This document shows, piece by piece, positions 16,094-42,586 of a stretch of DNA of 64,000 bases (positions within the stretch are counted from its first letter, which is position 1; the number at the start of each line of letters is the position of its first letter). Source of the DNA: Cyanobium sp. ATX 6A2 (lineage in GTDB: Bacteria > Cyanobacteriota > Cyanobacteriia > PCC-6307 > Cyanobiaceae); the NCBI RefSeq assembly GCF_024346355.1, contig NZ_JAGQCU010000001.1, forward strand, positions 124,001 through 188,000, in the 5' to 3' direction. The notes under the pieces are model-generated. The model had not been told where the DNA came from and did not search any database. It saw nothing but the letters and a program-made list of their open reading frames with translations. The position numbers and the translations under genes were made by a program.

Positions 16094-17350
16094 ATGACCC
16101 AGCGCTACGGAATCGTGACGCCTCCGGCGATCGGTCATCTCAATCCGATGGTGGCGTTGGCGTTGGAGCTCACGAGGCGGGGCCACGGAGTGGTGCTGTT
16201 CACCGTGGCGGATGGAGCCCGCAAGCTGAACGGGCTGCCACTTGAGGTGGTGACGATCGGCGCCACAACCTTTCCCCCCGGGGCCGTGGACGAGACCTAT
16301 GGGACGCTTGGGCGGCTGAGCGGGCGGAAAGGACTGCGCTTTTCGGTGGATTACTTCCGCAACGAGCAGGCGATGCTGCACGCGGAGCTGCCGGACGCTG
16401 TGCGTGGGGCCGGAATTGATGTGCTGCTGGTGGATCAGATCTCCCCAGCGGGGAGCACGGTGGCTGAATTTCTGGGTCTGCCGTTTGTCACGATCGCCAA
16501 TGCCTTGCCGGTGAACCGAGAGCCAGGGGTACCGCCCTACTTCACGGGGTGGTTGCCAGGCAACAGCCCGTGGGCACGCTGGCGCAATCAGCTCGGCAAT
16601 GCCCTTCTCAACAGGCTCACGGCACCGCTGTTGCGCGATCTCCAGGAGCAGCGCCAGCGCTTTGGGCTGAAACCGCTGCGGCAGAAGATTGAGGCGCTCT
16701 CTCCCCTGCTGCAGCTGGCCCAGCTGCCGGCCGCCTTTGATTTTCCGCGTACGCAGTTGGCGCCGCACTTTCACTACGTGGGCCGGCTGGCGGATCCTTC
16801 AGGACAGGAGCCGTTGTTGCGTGATGTCGCTGGCTTCCCCTGGGAGCGACTGGATGGCAGGCCGTTGCTGTATGCCTCGTTGGGGACGCTCCAGAATGGC
16901 CGCCCGGAGCTGTTTGCGCTGATCGCCGAAGCCTGCGCGCCGTTGCCTGCCCAGCTGGTGATGTCCATGGGCAATCCCACGAGCGTGCCCCTGGAGCTTC
17001 CCGGTGATCCCCTGGTGGTGGCCTATGCGCCACATCAACAGCTGATTGAACGCTCAGCGCTGGTGATCAGCCACGCGGGCCTCAACACCACCCTCACGGC
17101 CCTGGGCTGTGGGGTGCCCGTGTTGGCGATCCCCATCACCAATGAACAACCGGGCATTGCCGCCCGGCTGGCCTACAGCAGAGCGGGGCGTGTGATTCCC
17201 GTGCAGAAACTTGGTGTGAAGGAACTGCGGGCTCTGGTGTCCGAGATGCTCAGGGATTCAAGCTACAAGACAAATGCTCAGCGGCTTCAGAGCGCGTGCA
17301 ACGCAGCTGGAGGGGTGGCGGCAGCTGCGGATTTGATCGAGGGGATTTAA
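16094..17350 (+). CDS. UGT/MGT-type glycosyltransferase (GT1, CrtX-like)
   Basis: 418 residues, GT-B fold. The N-terminal acceptor half has GHLNPMVALALELTRRGH; the C-terminal donor-nucleotide half has LYASLGT, APHQQLIERSALVISHAGLN and GVPVLAIPITNEQP, the prokaryotic UDP-glycosyltransferase signature. Related enzymes glucosylate carotenoids (zeaxanthin) or sterol-like lipids; the acceptor here is not determined. The stop codon (17348-17350) lies inside the boundary box of the adjacent integron-like cassette, so this gene marks the left edge of the island. Confidence 0.88.
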   Translation: MTQRYGIVTPPAIGHLNPMVALALELTRRGHGVVLFTVADGARKLNGLPLEVVTIGATTFPPGAVDETYGTLGRLSGRKGLRFSVDYFRNEQAMLHAELPDAVRGAGIDVLLVDQISPAGSTVAEFLGLPFVTIANALPVNREPGVPPYFTGWLPGNSPWARWRNQLGNALLNRLTAPLLRDLQEQRQRFGLKPLRQKIEALSPLLQLAQLPAAFDFPRTQLAPHFHYVGRLADPSGQEPLLRDVAGFPWERLDGRPLLYASLGTLQNGRPELFALIAEACAPLPAQLVMSMGNPTSVPLELPGDPLVVAYAPHQQLIERSALVISHAGLNTTLTALGCGVPVLAIPITNEQPGIAARLAYSRAGRVIPVQKLGVKELRALVSEMLRDSSYKTNAQRLQSACNAAGGVAAAADLIEGI

Positions 17351-17430
17351 CGCTCAAGATCAGCGGCGGGTAGAGCTTGACGCAACCAGTTCGGATTTAG
17401 AGCCCCGACCGCTGAATCTTGATGTTCGGC
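17345..17430 (-). mobile_element. attC: attC-like integron recombination site B (end of cassette B)
   Basis: 86 bp, read on the minus strand. It begins with GCCGAAC (17430-17424, one mismatch to RYYYAAC) and ends with GTTAAAT (17351-17345, perfect GTTRRRY). The inner arms AACATCAAGAT-CAGCGG and CCGCCGCTGATCTTG pair imperfectly, leaving extrahelical bases as in real attC sites. Length and arms match site A at 20263-20348. GCCGAAC is the complement of the first bases of its own cassette (TTCGGC at 20268). Confidence 0.85.
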
Positions 17431-17806
17431 GGAAGGCGCATGCTATCAATTCCCTTTGGCGCGTTTGTGGGTCACGCAAAGCATCTGCAGTTCTTGGCCG
17501 CACTACCACCACATTGCTGCATGCGGCAGCATGACCGGAGACCATCTCGAGGCAATCGTAAATCCTGGCATAATTCGGATTGTCGCCTACCAGGTACAAC
17601 GAGCAGTTGAACTCTTTGTTGCCTTTAACCGCTTGAGGCAGCAAGGTGAAGGCGATCTTCTTGATATTCCCCTTCGTAGAAAGTGCGGACGGCGAGCAGC
17701 TGACGTACCAAGTCTTGGCATCATAATGCACTACGAATCTCTCTTGCTGTGCGCATGACCAAATTTGAATTCCCGCTTCTGCTTGCAGCGAGAAGTGATG
17801 CAACAT
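17360..17806 (-). CDS. Small hypothetical protein at the end of cassette B
   Basis: 148 residues from ATG at 17806, overlapping the 3' end of the 440-residue gene by 86 bp. No family recognised. The central part (KTWYVSCSPSALSTKG, FNCSLYLVGDNPNYARIYDCLEM) looks protein-like, with four or five cysteines. The last roughly 25 residues are a translation of the attC site, where cassette genes often end. The reading is plausible but could be a chance frame; the opposite-strand frames here are worse. Confidence 0.42.
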   Translation of the reverse strand: MLHHFSLQAEAGIQIWSCAQQERFVVHYDAKTWYVSCSPSALSTKGNIKKIAFTLLPQAVKGNKEFNCSLYLVGDNPNYARIYDCLEMVSGHAAACSNVVVVRPRTADALRDPQTRQRELIACAFRRTSRFSGRGSKSELVASSSTRR

Positions 17807-19043
17807 TCTTATCTTTCGGCACAAACTCCGAGTGGACAAGCTCTGCGACTAGACCGCACCATCGAGAGACTGGCTTACTTTCGTCTGTTAACTTGTCGAG
17901 AACTGTTCTATCGCGCCAGAGGCATTCGTTGAAATAGTATTCCCATTGTGTTGGCCTAAGCGAAGACAGAAGCTGATTGGCGGCCGACTGAGCTGACCAC
18001 GCCTCTCCCCAGACATTTCCAAGGCGAACTGCTAATGCTGCTTCCATGCACTTTGCAAATGCAGGCATAGGTATAGTTGTACCGAGATTGGCAAGCGACT
18101 GCATGGGATCGCGCTCATTAAAGAAGTTGTTCATGGAGAAATGGGCTGACAGTACCTTCGCTGCGGCCTCAGTGTACGTGCTTGATCGGAGCGTTTCAGG
18201 CACGAAGTCGAATCCATGGACATCTAGTAACGCCTTCTTCAAACCACCTGATGCCAACCGATTGCCTGACGCATTCACCTCTGCATACGCTTGCCCAATT
18301 TGCCATCTTTCTGGTTCGCGCAACCGTCCCCAGAGGGAGGGCACGAGGACCATGCAATTACCGACCGCATGCTCCAACGTTGCCCCCTGTTGCGTCTTAA
18401 TCATTGATAGGAGCACACTAAGTGTTGTTCGAACAAAAAAGTATGGCGAAGTCTGGATTGCTGTCACATCGCCGGAGCCTGAGGAAAGCGTCTGTTCGCC
18501 TAGTCGCTTGCGAAAGTCGGCGAATTGCATCGCAGCCTCGAAACGGGGCTTTCCTAAAATGCTGGTAACGCATGTCCGAAGCAAGCTAACCGCTTCCTCC
18601 TTCTGCATCGCTTCTTCTTCTGCTTCTTTTTCGTCGAGACTAGCGAAGTGGGTTACGATCTGAAGCGAGTGTTTCAGTCGTAGTGCTTGCGTTGCCGTGA
18701 TCATGCCGAGATCTTCGGCGAGGGTAATCACTTCATGGTCGGCAATAGCTGTTGTTGGATCTGAGTCATCATTGAGATCAGGGCGACCGAGCATCTCGCC
18801 CACGAATTCCATACCTAGAGTCGCTACCTGCTTTTTCATCGTGGCGGCAGCTTTGGTCCAAACAAACGTCGAGACCATTTCGTAACCTTGAGCATCGAAT
18901 CCAGCGATAATTGATTGAATATCTCGCTTGGTAAGAGTGGCGCGCCCGAATTCAACAATCGCAGAAGGAGTGTCGGCTGTAGTGGGAATCACCACTAAAT
19001 CGCTTGGATTCCACGGAACAATCTGGTTATCTTGGTTGCTCAT
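17721..19043 (-). CDS. Uncharacterised all-helical 440-residue protein in cassette B
   Basis: 440 residues; family not recognised. No signal peptide or membrane segment. After about 70 mixed residues (IVEFGRATLTKRDIQSIIAG) it appears almost wholly helical, with a charged coiled-coil-like stretch near residue 140 (SLDEKEAEEEAMQKEEA) and amphipathic helices to the end. No Walker, metal or nuclease motif is visible. The ATG overlaps the stop of the DAC-like gene by 4 bp (ATGA), so the two are coupled and probably act together, perhaps as sensor and adaptor. Confidence 0.8.
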   Translation of the reverse strand: MSNQDNQIVPWNPSDLVVIPTTADTPSAIVEFGRATLTKRDIQSIIAGFDAQGYEMVSTFVWTKAAATMKKQVATLGMEFVGEMLGRPDLNDDSDPTTAIADHEVITLAEDLGMITATQALRLKHSLQIVTHFASLDEKEAEEEAMQKEEAVSLLRTCVTSILGKPRFEAAMQFADFRKRLGEQTLSSGSGDVTAIQTSPYFFVRTTLSVLLSMIKTQQGATLEHAVGNCMVLVPSLWGRLREPERWQIGQAYAEVNASGNRLASGGLKKALLDVHGFDFVPETLRSSTYTEAAAKVLSAHFSMNNFFNERDPMQSLANLGTTIPMPAFAKCMEAALAVRLGNVWGEAWSAQSAANQLLSSLRPTQWEYYFNECLWRDRTVLDKLTDESKPVSRWCGLVAELVHSEFVPKDKNVASLLAASRSGNSNLVMRTAREIRSAL

Positions 19044-20083
19044 GACTTCACCTTTTCACATTCTGTATGTCCATCTTGCGAACGAAAAAACGTCGCCTTT
19101 ACTTGTTCTCCTATGCGCGATTTCATGAGCGCGTATGTGCGTCTACGCCCCCCGCCCTCTTCGGGAAGTGACTTTTTCTCGTCATCTGTTGGCTTCAGAA
19201 ATATGCGGTATCCGAGGACGCTACCATTATCACCGAAGATAACAACGCCGTCACTTCCAATCATCCCACCAAGAAGGGCCTCGCAGGCAGCGAGCCTGGC
19301 AAGTGAACTCGCATCCTGTGCATCTAATGCCGACACATAAGCACTGTACATGTCAACGGAATTCTTTAGCCATACGCCACTACTAAGCTGCTCCGGTGCT
19401 TGATCCCCTTGGGGAACAGCATGCACCATCAAGAGTGTCCCATGACAGTGCTGCAACAGGTCGGTCAGTAGGCGAGACAAGTACTGCTGGAATCTATCCA
19501 CCTTCGGACCGCTGAGCGCTGACGCTGCTGCCTCGGCAAAAGTGGACACCTGATGCGCAAAAGGGGATTCTGCTGCGGGTGCGGAAGTGAACAAGGTCGT
19601 CAGTGTTTCATTCTTGGAATTACGTAGCTCAACGACAAGATGCCCGCGATTTCGGACTAGCAACATTGGCACTTCACCCTGCTCAACCATCATCTCTTCA
19701 GCAGTAGTCGCGAATGAGTGCATTGCAGAACGGAATACACCATACTCAGCGACGTTGTCTGCTGTTTTCCCGACGTAGACGGACCAACCCTTTACTGCAA
19801 GGCTGGCGCAGTCCTTTAGAACCAGTTCGGCTGCAGTATTCAGCGAAACCCCCTCTTTAATAATTACACGCTCAGTGCCGGGCGAGATTGATGCAAGGTT
19901 GGCGAGATCCGTGAGGACAAACACATCTGGGAACATCGGTATGTCCTCTTCGCGATAACTTGCGAGCAAGCACGTGATGTCGCGCACGAGCTCGGCAGTA
20001 TGGACACATGCAATACCACTATCGTTTAGGAAGTCTATTAACTCGCCCTGCAGGGGGGCTCTTATTGAAAATGTCTTCCCCAT
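19040..20083 (-). CDS. Protein with divergent DisA/CdaA-like (DAC-fold) C-terminal domain
   Basis: 347 residues, cytoplasmic. The C-terminus (about 260-340) follows the diadenylate-cyclase domain order: IGSDGVVIFGDNGSVLGYRIFL, then GGGRRRTYALMKSRI, then FFRSQDG. The genuine CdaA at 41756-42586 has [27 protein letters not shown] and VVSEETG in the same places. DGA is changed to DGV and the GTRH/RHR box is degenerate, so it is more likely a nucleotide sensor than an active cyclase. Computational studies describe such DAC-like sensor domains in bacterial conflict systems. ATG at 20083 lies 7 bp after a GTTAGGC box. Confidence 0.75.
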   Translation of the reverse strand: MGKTFSIRAPLQGELIDFLNDSGIACVHTAELVRDITCLLASYREEDIPMFPDVFVLTDLANLASISPGTERVIIKEGVSLNTAAELVLKDCASLAVKGWSVYVGKTADNVAEYGVFRSAMHSFATTAEEMMVEQGEVPMLLVRNRGHLVVELRNSKNETLTTLFTSAPAAESPFAHQVSTFAEAAASALSGPKVDRFQQYLSRLLTDLLQHCHGTLLMVHAVPQGDQAPEQLSSGVWLKNSVDMYSAYVSALDAQDASSLARLAACEALLGGMIGSDGVVIFGDNGSVLGYRIFLKPTDDEKKSLPEEGGGRRRTYALMKSRIGEQVKATFFRSQDGHTECEKVKS

Positions 20084-20262: not shown

Positions 20263-20348
20263 GCCGAAGGCCAAGATCAGCGGCGGACAAGGAAGCATAG
20301 AGTGGTCCAGCGCTCACATCTGCCGTCCGCTGCATCTTGATGTTATGC
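20263..20348 (-). mobile_element. attC: attC-like integron recombination site A (end of cassette A)
   Basis: 86 bp on the minus strand. It starts with GCATAAC (20348-20342), which contains the TAA stop of the TIR gene, and ends with CTTCGGC (20269-20263), one mismatch to GTTRRRY at the crossover base. Arms ATCAAGATGCAGCGGACGG and GTCCGCCGCTGATCTTG pair imperfectly. GCATAAC is the exact complement of GTTATGC at 21366-21360, just before the TIR start, as expected if both belong to one cassette. Confidence 0.86.
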
Positions 20349-21365
20349 ATCACTTCTGCGATTATGAACATATTGAACCAGCGAGGTTCGACCTTGGATG
20401 TGCAAGACGGTGACCTGCATGACTACACCGTTTGAGTCTTCCAACTTGAACGGAACGCCCACTACGAAAGAAGCTGGCTGCAGCTCGCCGTCCCGAATGG
20501 CAATATTATCCGCATACAAATACAATCGTTTGCTTGTGTCGAGGATTGGGTTCAGCCGGCCGGCTAACCCAGGGATGTATCCGGTGCTATGGCAGATAAT
20601 TGACCCAGTGTTTTCGCTCGCTGGAAGCGTTGCACGCAAGTTGTCTACAGGGTCCCAGTCCGGAAAGATGGCGCCGGGACGATTGGGGTGAGCAATCAGA
20701 ACCCGCAGCTTTCGCCGAGTCTGAAATGTGAACCTAGCCTCACCGAGCCCGGAACTGACCGAGTCCTTGAAGGTGTTGTTGTCAGCCAGTGCAGTGACAG
20801 TGGCTCCTTCAAGTGGATTGCAATCTTCATCAAGCACATGAACTACAGCTTCCGTTGGATCAACACGGGGAGGTGACTCAAGGGAATAAACGGCAGTTCG
20901 TAGCTGTTCCGATGGGATACTACGGCCGGCGTGAACTAGCTTCTTCTGGATTAGCTTAACAAATTCCTGTGGAGGTTTGTTCGCAAGGGAAATATAAGCC
21001 ACTGTTGGCAGGACGCCCGGAATCGCAGTGTCGTCGAAACGCGCAGGTAAAACGTATTCTTCGTGTTCCTGAAATGCTCGTGCTTGCATGGCCTGGCGCT
21101 CGTGTGTGGGCCAGAGCTTCCCCGCATAGCTCTTGGAGATGAACATGATCGTGTACAGGGCCTTATTTTGGTATACGTCTGAGAGATAGTCATACAGGTT
21201 CTTCCCCCAGAGACTTGACTCCTCAAAGAGATCGTAGAAGACCTTGACACCCGAGCTTCGGAGCAGGTTCGCGACCTGGTCGACGTACGGGCGATCCTCT
21301 CCTGCGAAGGAAAGGGCGATTTCAAACTGTGGGTCGCGAGTCATGCTGGAGTTTGGAATGCATAA
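20269..21365 (-). mobile_element. Integron-like gene cassette A (TIR-domain gene)
   Basis: 1097 bp from TTATGC at 21365 to the crossover base at 20269. It holds a single gene whose start is 16 nt inside the 5' boundary and whose stop is inside the attC, the compact one-gene cassette layout. It lies upstream of cassette B in the same orientation. Nothing resembling an attI site or an integrase gene is visible upstream, to 21662, where chromosomal composition resumes. Confidence 0.8.
20343..21344 (-). CDS. TIR-domain protein with beta-rich C-terminal extension
   Basis: 333 residues. Residues 6-135 are a bacterial TIR domain: FEIALSFAGEDRPYVDQVANLL, GVKVFYDLFEESSLWGKNL, MFISKSYAGKLWPTHERQA and VLPARFDDTAIPG. 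Glu41/Glu42 before LWGK are candidates for the NADase glutamate. Residues 164-220 look like a transthyretin/carboxypeptidase-regulatory beta-sandwich (VVHVLDEDCNPLEGATVTAL). Residues 255-330 are another beta module (GRLNPILDTSKRLYLYADN). TIR effectors typically cleave NAD+ or make nucleotide signals in anti-phage defence; that role is inferred here. Confidence 0.9.
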   Translation of the reverse strand: MTRDPQFEIALSFAGEDRPYVDQVANLLRSSGVKVFYDLFEESSLWGKNLYDYLSDVYQNKALYTIMFISKSYAGKLWPTHERQAMQARAFQEHEEYVLPARFDDTAIPGVLPTVAYISLANKPPQEFVKLIQKKLVHAGRSIPSEQLRTAVYSLESPPRVDPTEAVVHVLDEDCNPLEGATVTALADNNTFKDSVSSGLGEARFTFQTRRKLRVLIAHPNRPGAIFPDWDPVDNLRATLPASENTGSIICHSTGYIPGLAGRLNPILDTSKRLYLYADNIAIRDGELQPASFVVGVPFKLEDSNGVVMQVTVLHIQGRTSLVQYVHNRRSDA

Positions 21366-21366
21366 C
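21360..21366 (-). mobile_element. 5' boundary box of cassette A (GTTATGC)
   Basis: Reads GTTATGC on the minus strand, the complement of the GCATAAC box that opens attC A. It is 15 nt upstream of the TIR start codon. The sequence immediately upstream (CTAATGACTA) shows no stem typical of attC, so this may be an attI remnant or a secondary insertion site. Confidence 0.7.
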
Positions 21367-40970: not shown

Positions 40971-41759
40971 TCAGTGGGCGGGATCGATGCCCCCGAAACG
41001 GCGCTGACGGTTCTGGTAGTCGAGCAGGGCCGCCAGCAGGGCGGCCTCATCGAAATCGGGCCAGAGCACCTCGGTGATGTGCAGCTCGGCGTAGGCCAGC
41101 TGCCAGAGCAGGAAGTTGCTGATCCGCTGCTCACCACTGGTGCGGATCAACAGGTCGGGATCGCACTCGCCGGCGGTGTGCAGCTCGGCGGCGAAGCTGG
41201 CCTCATCAATGGCGGCCGGATCCAGTTCACCCCGTGCAGCCCGTTCGGCCAGCCGCCGGGCTGCCCCCACCAGCTCGGCGCGGCCTCCGTAGTTGGTGCA
41301 CACATTGAAATGGATGCCATCGTTGGCGGCGGTGCGACCGGTGGCCTCGGCGATCAACCGCTGCAGGCCCTCCGGCAAGGGGGTGAGGTCGCCCAGGAAC
41401 CGAATCCGCACCCGCTCGCGCTCCAGCGCCTGCAGCTCCCGCTGCAGCACCCGCTCGAACAGGGCCATCAGGAAGCTCACTTCCTCGCCCGGCCGGTTCC
41501 AGTTCTCGGTGGAGAAGGCATAGGCGGTGAGGGCGCCGATGCCCCAGTCGCTGCACAGCCGCAGGGTGCGCTTGAGCGCCTCCACCCCGGCCCGGTGCCC
41601 CATCACCCGGGGCAGGCCGCGGCGGCGGGCCCAACGGCCGTTGCCATCCATGATCACGGCCACATGGGCGGGAAGCCGGGCGGGATCGAGGGCCGCCGGC
41701 GATGCCTGCCGGGCCGCGCCGAGGATGGAGTGGCTGTCGGTCGCCAGGGCGCGACTCAT
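40971..41759 (-). CDS. uppS: Isoprenyl transferase (undecaprenyl diphosphate synthase type)
   Basis: 262 residues. Motifs: [19 protein letters not shown] with the catalytic Asp, [23 protein letters not shown], and [20 protein letters not shown]. It makes the long-chain cis-polyprenyl carrier for cell wall synthesis. ATG at 41759 overlaps the cdaA stop by 4 bp. Confidence 0.95.
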
Positions 41760-42586
41760 CCGCGTGGTTCCGGCGTGTCCTTGGCCACGCTACGTCCACC
41801 CGGCCTGGCCAGGGCCTGGCTGAGCAGGTCGTGCAGCCGGCTGCTGGTGATCGGCCGCTCCAGCCGGCCATGGCAGGCGAGCGACAGGGTGCCCGTTTCC
41901 TCCGACACCACGATCGCCAGACAGCGGTTGAAGCGCTCGGTGAGACCCAGGGCCGCCAGGTGGCGGGTGCCGTAGCGATTGATGCCCTGGCGCGAGAGCG
42001 GCAGGATTACCCCTGCCGCCAGGATGCGGTTGCCCTTCACCAGCACAGCGCCGTCGTGGAGCGGCGTGTCGGCGGCAAACAGGTTGAGCAGCAGATCCAC
42101 CGACAGCTGGGCATCGAGGCTGATGCCGGGATTGAGAAAGTCTTCCGGGCGCAGATCACTGCCGTGGTCCACCACGATCAGGGCCCCGCGCCGGGCCTGG
42201 GAGAGACGCCCTGCGGCCTCGCTGAGCACCGCCACCGAACCGGACTTGAGGGCATCGGCGCCGCCATCGCCGAACACCATTCCCAGCCGACCGGTGCCGA
42301 GCAGTTCCATGAACCGCCGCAGCTCGCCCTGCCAGAGGATCGCCAGGGCCAGGCTGCAGGCCAGCACCAGGGCGTCCAGCAGTCGGGCCGTGAGCGGCAG
42401 ATTGGCGAAGCGCTGCACCGCCCAGGCGAGTCCCACGAGCAGCAGGTAGCCCCGCAGCAACCAGAGGGTGCGGGAGTCGCGCACCCGGCCCAGCACCACA
42501 ACCCCGAGGCCGAGGGCCAGAAACAGGTCGAGGAACAGGCGTAGATCGAGAACGCGGAGCCAACTCCCGAGCCAGAGCCCGCTCAC
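41756..42586 (-). CDS. cdaA: Membrane diadenylate cyclase (c-di-AMP synthase)
   Basis: 276 residues from GTG at 42586. Three N-terminal membrane helices ([48 protein letters not shown]), then the DAC domain with [31 protein letters not shown] and AIVVSEETG. The DGA and GTRH motifs are intact, so it should make c-di-AMP. It is between lysA (21 bp upstream) and uppS (overlapping). It is the reference for judging the degenerate DAC-like protein at 19040-20083. Confidence 0.94.

Follow-up and report, generated by a model that had tools for sequence, protein, structure and literature searches.

The window analysed here, a 64,000-nucleotide stretch of the genome of Cyanobium sp. ATX 6A2, contains a two-gene integron cassette, foreign to its host and with defined boundaries, in which the gene for a divergent protein of the DAC fold, its pocket conserved in an altered form, is paired with the gene for a fixed solenoid partner. 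Our favoured, though tentative, reading is that the pair constitutes an undescribed and mobile two-protein defence module, whose DAC-fold subunit would bind a nucleotide and possibly act as a catalyst. DAC enzymes have mainly been known for making c-di-AMP, and one of them has been tied to phage defence only recently. If the present family has an immune role, the DAC fold has a second job in immunity, also in bacteria that have no canonical DAC. The module is compact (a 2.9-kb cassette) and directly testable.

Integron cassette and foreign origin

Two attC-like sites, both on the minus strand, delimit the pair. The first (17345..17430; R'' GCCGAAC, R' GTTAAAT) closes the cassette, and the second (20263..20348; R'' GCATAAC, R' CTTCGGC, the latter one change from GTTCGGC) lies between this cassette and that of a neighbouring TIR-domain gene. 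The two sites have a 22-nt element in common (91% identity), and their arms are the same as those of a canonical attC (GCCTAAC...GTTAGGC; G000:C5:1022-1106) in host contig C5. Each cassette start is complementary to an attC arm: TTCGGC, ahead of the DAC-like gene, to GCCGAAC in the first site, and GTTATGC (21366-21360), ahead of the TIR gene, to GCATAAC in the second. Because cassette starts pair with attC arms twice in this way, the TIR gene (20343..21344, minus strand; TIR_2, E 1e-15) is one single-gene cassette, outside the module, and the DAC-like gene plus its partner are the next, a two-gene cassette of 2,918 bp. An integron integrase (TIGR02249, 459 bits against a cut-off of 265) is encoded on another contig of the host, and the pair in the window is thus an integron cassette, bounded by attC-like sites in a genome with an integrase. 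The intact integrase gene is at G000:C7:1502-2434; contigs C42, C3, C34 and C45 are listed for several broken copies, and attC sites are found on C5 and C3.

The G+C content of the DAC-like/partner cassette is 51%, compared with approximately 69% in its flanks, and in a tree of the partner proteins the window copy falls inside a Planctomycetota group (98/98). The unit is therefore foreign to its host and of Planctomycetota ancestry. The TIR cassette (20343-21366, minus strand) has a G+C content of 53%. A MAG assigned to Clostridia (L021) has a two-gene cassette arranged in the same way, though its attC is weaker, and two further copies of the pair (L002 and L003) are plasmid-borne. Phage defences carried on integron cassettes have been described (PMC12409362).

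A nucleotide made by the TIR protein had been put forward in the initial annotation as a possible ligand of the DAC-like protein. In the window, the first gene upstream of the pair is the TIR gene, and neighbouring cassettes may share a transcript. However, it occupies a cassette of its own and no TIR relatives were found beside the other members of the DAC-like family, so that there is no Thoeris-like linkage of a TIR to a sensor-effector gene, and sensing of a TIR product by the DAC-like protein seems hardly credible.

Family of the DAC-like protein

The DAC-like gene (19040..20083, minus strand) is an open frame for a protein of 347 aa, which none of the Pfam, NCBIfam and PADLOC models matches on its own. 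Used alone as a query, the protein found nothing in the first scan of genome contigs, and its first relatives are encoded on an Agrobacterium plasmid (27% identity) and a Vibrio plasmid (26%), aligned over nearly the full length. More relatives were retrieved via the downstream partner, the better conserved of the two proteins, and in this partner-based search bacterial genomes contributed 21 loci and viral contigs four good ones. Relatives of the pair occur in seven phyla other than that of the host; among 292 genomes of the host phylum, only one other genome has a relative. A collection of phage records contained no match to either protein, viral proteins searched by fold included no convincing homologue, and Rfam gave no match. 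In an HMM search of PADLOC-DB 2.0.0, neither the DAC-like protein nor the partner was matched up to an E-value of 1; the pair is absent from this 2023 release, and systems described later could include it under another name. In the copy from Singulisphaera (L015:6952-8001), an in-frame stop interrupts the DAC-like gene, and the partner gene there is open.

DAC fold

The DAC-fold region comprises residues ~195-345 (19049..19501, minus strand), as judged from profile and fold matches to DACs, with limits taken from the secondary structure of the model. Pfam DAC is the commonest Pfam match among the family members, yet it appears in only three of the 25 and below threshold (best E 0.021), and the window protein does not reach the gathering score of PF02457. 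When the family profile was compared with all PDB sequences, the sole match up to an E-value of 10 was the DAC protein 2fb5 (E 0.071), in an alignment that places the HG/RGALIV, DGA and GTRHRA motifs in register. Furthermore, a profile of the C-terminal half scored 22.4 against a profile of 30 DACs, a score reached by one of 150 column shuffles. In the AlphaFold2 model of the protein (pLDDT 86.3, pTM 0.69), the seven best PDB matches are all DisA or DacM chains, four of them at a probability of 1.00; the E-values are modest (2e-3 to 6e-2). Each of these lines is weak to moderate; taken together, profiles and predicted model in our view settle the fold, and we assign the protein to the DAC (DisA_N) superfamily as a divergent member.

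The initial annotation had placed a DAC-like domain at residues 260-340 and had made its proposal hinge on a DAC fold being predicted there, which is what the model gives. It had also described the order of motifs as that of CdaA; the order is indeed the same, whereas the extent was drawn too short. A relation to named nucleotide-sensor relatives of DAC in Pfam was considered but could not be confirmed, as there was no Pfam match and no relevant use of the terms in the papers searched. In the model, the N-terminal half has an order of helices and strands similar to that of the C-terminal half. An internal duplication, with the N-terminal half as a second DAC copy, is nevertheless not claimed, because no signal emerged when the profiles were compared (69 of 150 shuffles scored at least as high).

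Active-site motifs

The 25 aligned sequences have 14 invariant columns, 10 of which (H214, G215, D278, G279, G310, G311, R313, S335, D337 and G338) fall on DAC motif positions within the C-terminal half. Four motifs, all encoded on the minus strand, can be followed in the window protein: HG (residues 214-215; 19439..19444) at the RRGALIV position of DACs, DGV (residues 278-280; 19244..19252) at that of DGA, GGGRRR (residues 310-315; 19139..19156) at that of GTRHR, and SQDG (residues 335-338; 19070..19081) at that of SEETG. Over residues 310-318 the protein reads GGGRRRTYA where DACs read GTRHRAA. Across the family the last three motifs are DG[I20 V4 M1], GG[A20 G5]R[R12 K7 S5 H1][R23 K2] and S[Q23 H1 S1]DG, and the histidine of RHR is kept in one of the 25 members only. 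For comparison, among 30 canonical DACs, DGA and SEETG are each present in all 30 and GTRHR in 29, the exception being the CdaA of the host itself, with GTRHL. The changes already noted in the initial annotation, from DGA to DGV and from GTRHR to a Gly/Arg-rich stretch, are thus correct for the window protein.

In CdaS, mutation of either DGA or RHR to AAA abolished c-di-AMP synthesis (PMC4568413), and CdaM needs both motifs (PMC13022847). Since both are required in the DACs tested, ordinary c-di-AMP synthesis by the DAC-like protein is unlikely, judging from its motifs. The earlier view, that key residues had been lost and that the protein would bind a ligand instead of making one, survives in part: the active site is altered and synthesis is unlikely, but "loss" is a misnomer, since the new form of the pocket positions does not vary among the 25 members, divergent as these are; this fits a function that has been retained, be it binding or catalytic. 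Members with as little as 19% identity to the window protein share this invariant pocket, which is therefore under selection, and in our reading the site is not dead but an active or binding site of a different kind. In a competing explanation, the DAC fold is a structural scaffold only, a pseudoenzyme that has no ligand and holds the partner. The catalytic histidine is lost, and the DAC-like protein is less conserved overall than its partner, as such a scaffold might be; yet in a protein that otherwise diverges, conservation is highest at the motif residues, and we regard this explanation as improbable.

Solenoid partner

The partner gene (17721..19043, minus strand), an obligate companion that the initial annotation had overlooked, overlaps the DAC-like gene by 4 nt and encodes a protein of 440 aa, modelled as an all-helical solenoid (AlphaFold2 pLDDT 87) that resembles ARM-repeat solenoids only generically. 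It lies directly downstream of the DAC-like gene in all 24 relatives whose downstream side is on the contig (L004, cut by a contig edge, is outside this count), at a spacing of -23 to +8 nt (23 measured). Partner proteins are 28-74% identical to the window copy, more conserved than the DAC-like proteins, and their invariant polar residues include D279, E283, H301, N306 and E310. A candidate third gene after the partner (17360-17731, minus strand, GTG start) was rejected: no relative was found, and it runs into the attC.

At two loci (L006:7188-9272 and L029:7212-9299), a caspase forms the N-terminal part of a fusion with the partner (Peptidase_C14, E 1e-13 and 6e-11, respectively), and no DAC-like gene was detected at either of them. 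The fusion gene adjoins a SIR2-pAgo gene in L006 and a DUF6414 gene in L029. Enterobacterial plasmids and one viral contig encode distant stand-alone relatives of the partner (profile E ~3e-18). Those at L032:4857-6287 and L009:7188-8672, from conjugative enterobacterial plasmids and a phage-like contig, carry an RN...HPN motif reminiscent of HEPN RNases.

Host CdaA and the question of the ligand

The host CdaA gene (41756-42586, minus strand; Pfam DAC, E 3.7e-33) encodes the only canonical DAC in the host genome. Its motifs, previously taken to be intact, are almost so, except that GTRHL replaces GTRHR. This looks like a lineage trait, because two Cyanobiaceae-type relatives have GTRHL too. 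As the host has this one DAC, c-di-AMP may well be present in it. On these grounds, and given its DAC fold, the protein from the cassette could be a sensor of host-made c-di-AMP, as the initial annotation suggested. It turns out, however, that a PF02457 DAC is lacking from nine of the 20 genomes in which the module occurs, and five of these nine are isolates (Vibrio nereis, Vibrio sp. qd031, Craterilacuibacter, Pseudohalocynthiibacter and Flavihumibacter). The pocket signature in the copies from DAC-free genomes is the same as elsewhere. Host c-di-AMP is thus contradicted as the general ligand, and a sensor of it is very improbable. The earlier picture is corrected on two counts: in general the ligand is not the c-di-AMP of the host, and the TIR neighbour belongs to a separate cassette.

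Defence-gene surroundings and proposed function

Copies of the pair were found near CBASS phospholipase and cyclase genes (L002 and L024), QatC (L028), SLATT_5 (L027), type IIG restriction-modification genes (L025 and L026), IetS (L018), PDC-M30A (L017), a type II methylase (L008) and a BsuBI/PstI system (L003). Selected by eye and without a background count, such neighbours constitute a lead, not proof. A conserved 204-aa protein of unknown family, which by eye looks membrane-spanning, is encoded after the Vibrio copies (L003:3225-3839, L018:9326-9940 and L024:9326-9940); after the Craterilacuibacter copy comes a SLATT_5 membrane protein (L027:9402-10037). Both proteins are possible optional membrane effectors.

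Toxin-antitoxin and other addiction modules are common on plasmids and in integron cassettes. The pair might be such a module, stabilising the mobile elements that carry it, since its two genes are tightly coupled and occur on plasmids (L002 and L003) as well as in integron cassettes (the window and L021). Both proteins are large for this role (347 and 440 aa), however, and the caspase fusion and the repeated defence neighbours fit immunity better, although the two classes overlap; we give addiction little credence.

Instead, we infer an anti-phage defence role for the pair, in which the DAC-like protein, to judge by its homology to DACs and its conserved pocket, would bind a nucleotide. How the two proteins would divide the labour is our guess. 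The solenoid partner would be a scaffold or recognition protein that detects infection, and the DAC-fold protein would serve as a switch or effector enzyme, with a purine nucleotide or a derivative as its ligand. The latter assignment is suggested because the cassette holds no other effector, and because two loci fuse the solenoid to a caspase in the absence of a DAC-like gene. A bolder and rather unlikely version is that the rebuilt, strictly conserved DAC-fold site makes or consumes a new nucleotide under the control of a phage-sensing solenoid, in the slot that a caspase fills elsewhere.

The strongest rival to a defence module with a nucleotide-bound switch or effector is that the DAC-like protein is an active nucleotidyltransferase, making a messenger other than c-di-AMP that acts on the partner or on neighbouring effectors. 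It would agree with the invariant acidic and basic residues, which are of a catalytic type, with the membrane-effector or CBASS genes beside some copies, and with the defence system DS-2, which requires the catalytic residues of its DAC (PMC13092281). In contrast, nearly all members have other residues for the RHR histidine and the preceding threonine, the DACs tested need both DAC motifs, and most copies have no separate effector gene. We consider it unlikely, though it deserves to be kept in view.

Comparison with known systems

The module protein resembles the DAC/DisA_N superfamily (PF02457: DisA, CdaA, CdaS and DacM) in its predicted fold and in the order and register of four motifs. It differs in having DG[IV] for DGA, G[AG]R[RKS]R for GTRHR and SQDG for SEETG, in an extra N-terminal half of ~170 residues, in scoring below the Pfam cut-off, and in its fixed solenoid partner.

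DS-2, which came from DefensePredictor, consists of a phospholipase, a CD-NTase and a DAC, and the DAC is needed for defence (PMC13092281). The likeness lies in a DAC-superfamily protein in a defence setting, and the Agrobacterium copy (L002) adjoins a CBASS phospholipase and cyclase. Compared by description, the two differ in that DS-2 needs predicted catalytic DAC residues and no solenoid partner gene is described for it. CBASS with a patatin-like phospholipase is a neighbour of the L002 and L024 copies, but the window module has no CD-NTase, most copies have no CBASS beside them, and the cassette, with its DAC-like and partner genes only, lacks the combination of CD-NTase and effector that defines a CBASS unit. 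Caspase-containing defence proteins (Peptidase_C14) share the partner domain by fusion in L006 and L029, whereas the window version has a DAC-like protein and no caspase.

Like the integron anti-phage cassettes (PMC12409362), the unit is compact, foreign and flanked by attC-like sites, and the genome around it encodes an integrase. The cassettes summarised there come from Vibrio and mobile integrons, whereas the present candidate is from a cyanobacterium. DAC-superfamily proteins in defence are already known, and what is new here is a family with a distinct signature, a fixed and as yet unnamed partner, and mobility as a cassette.
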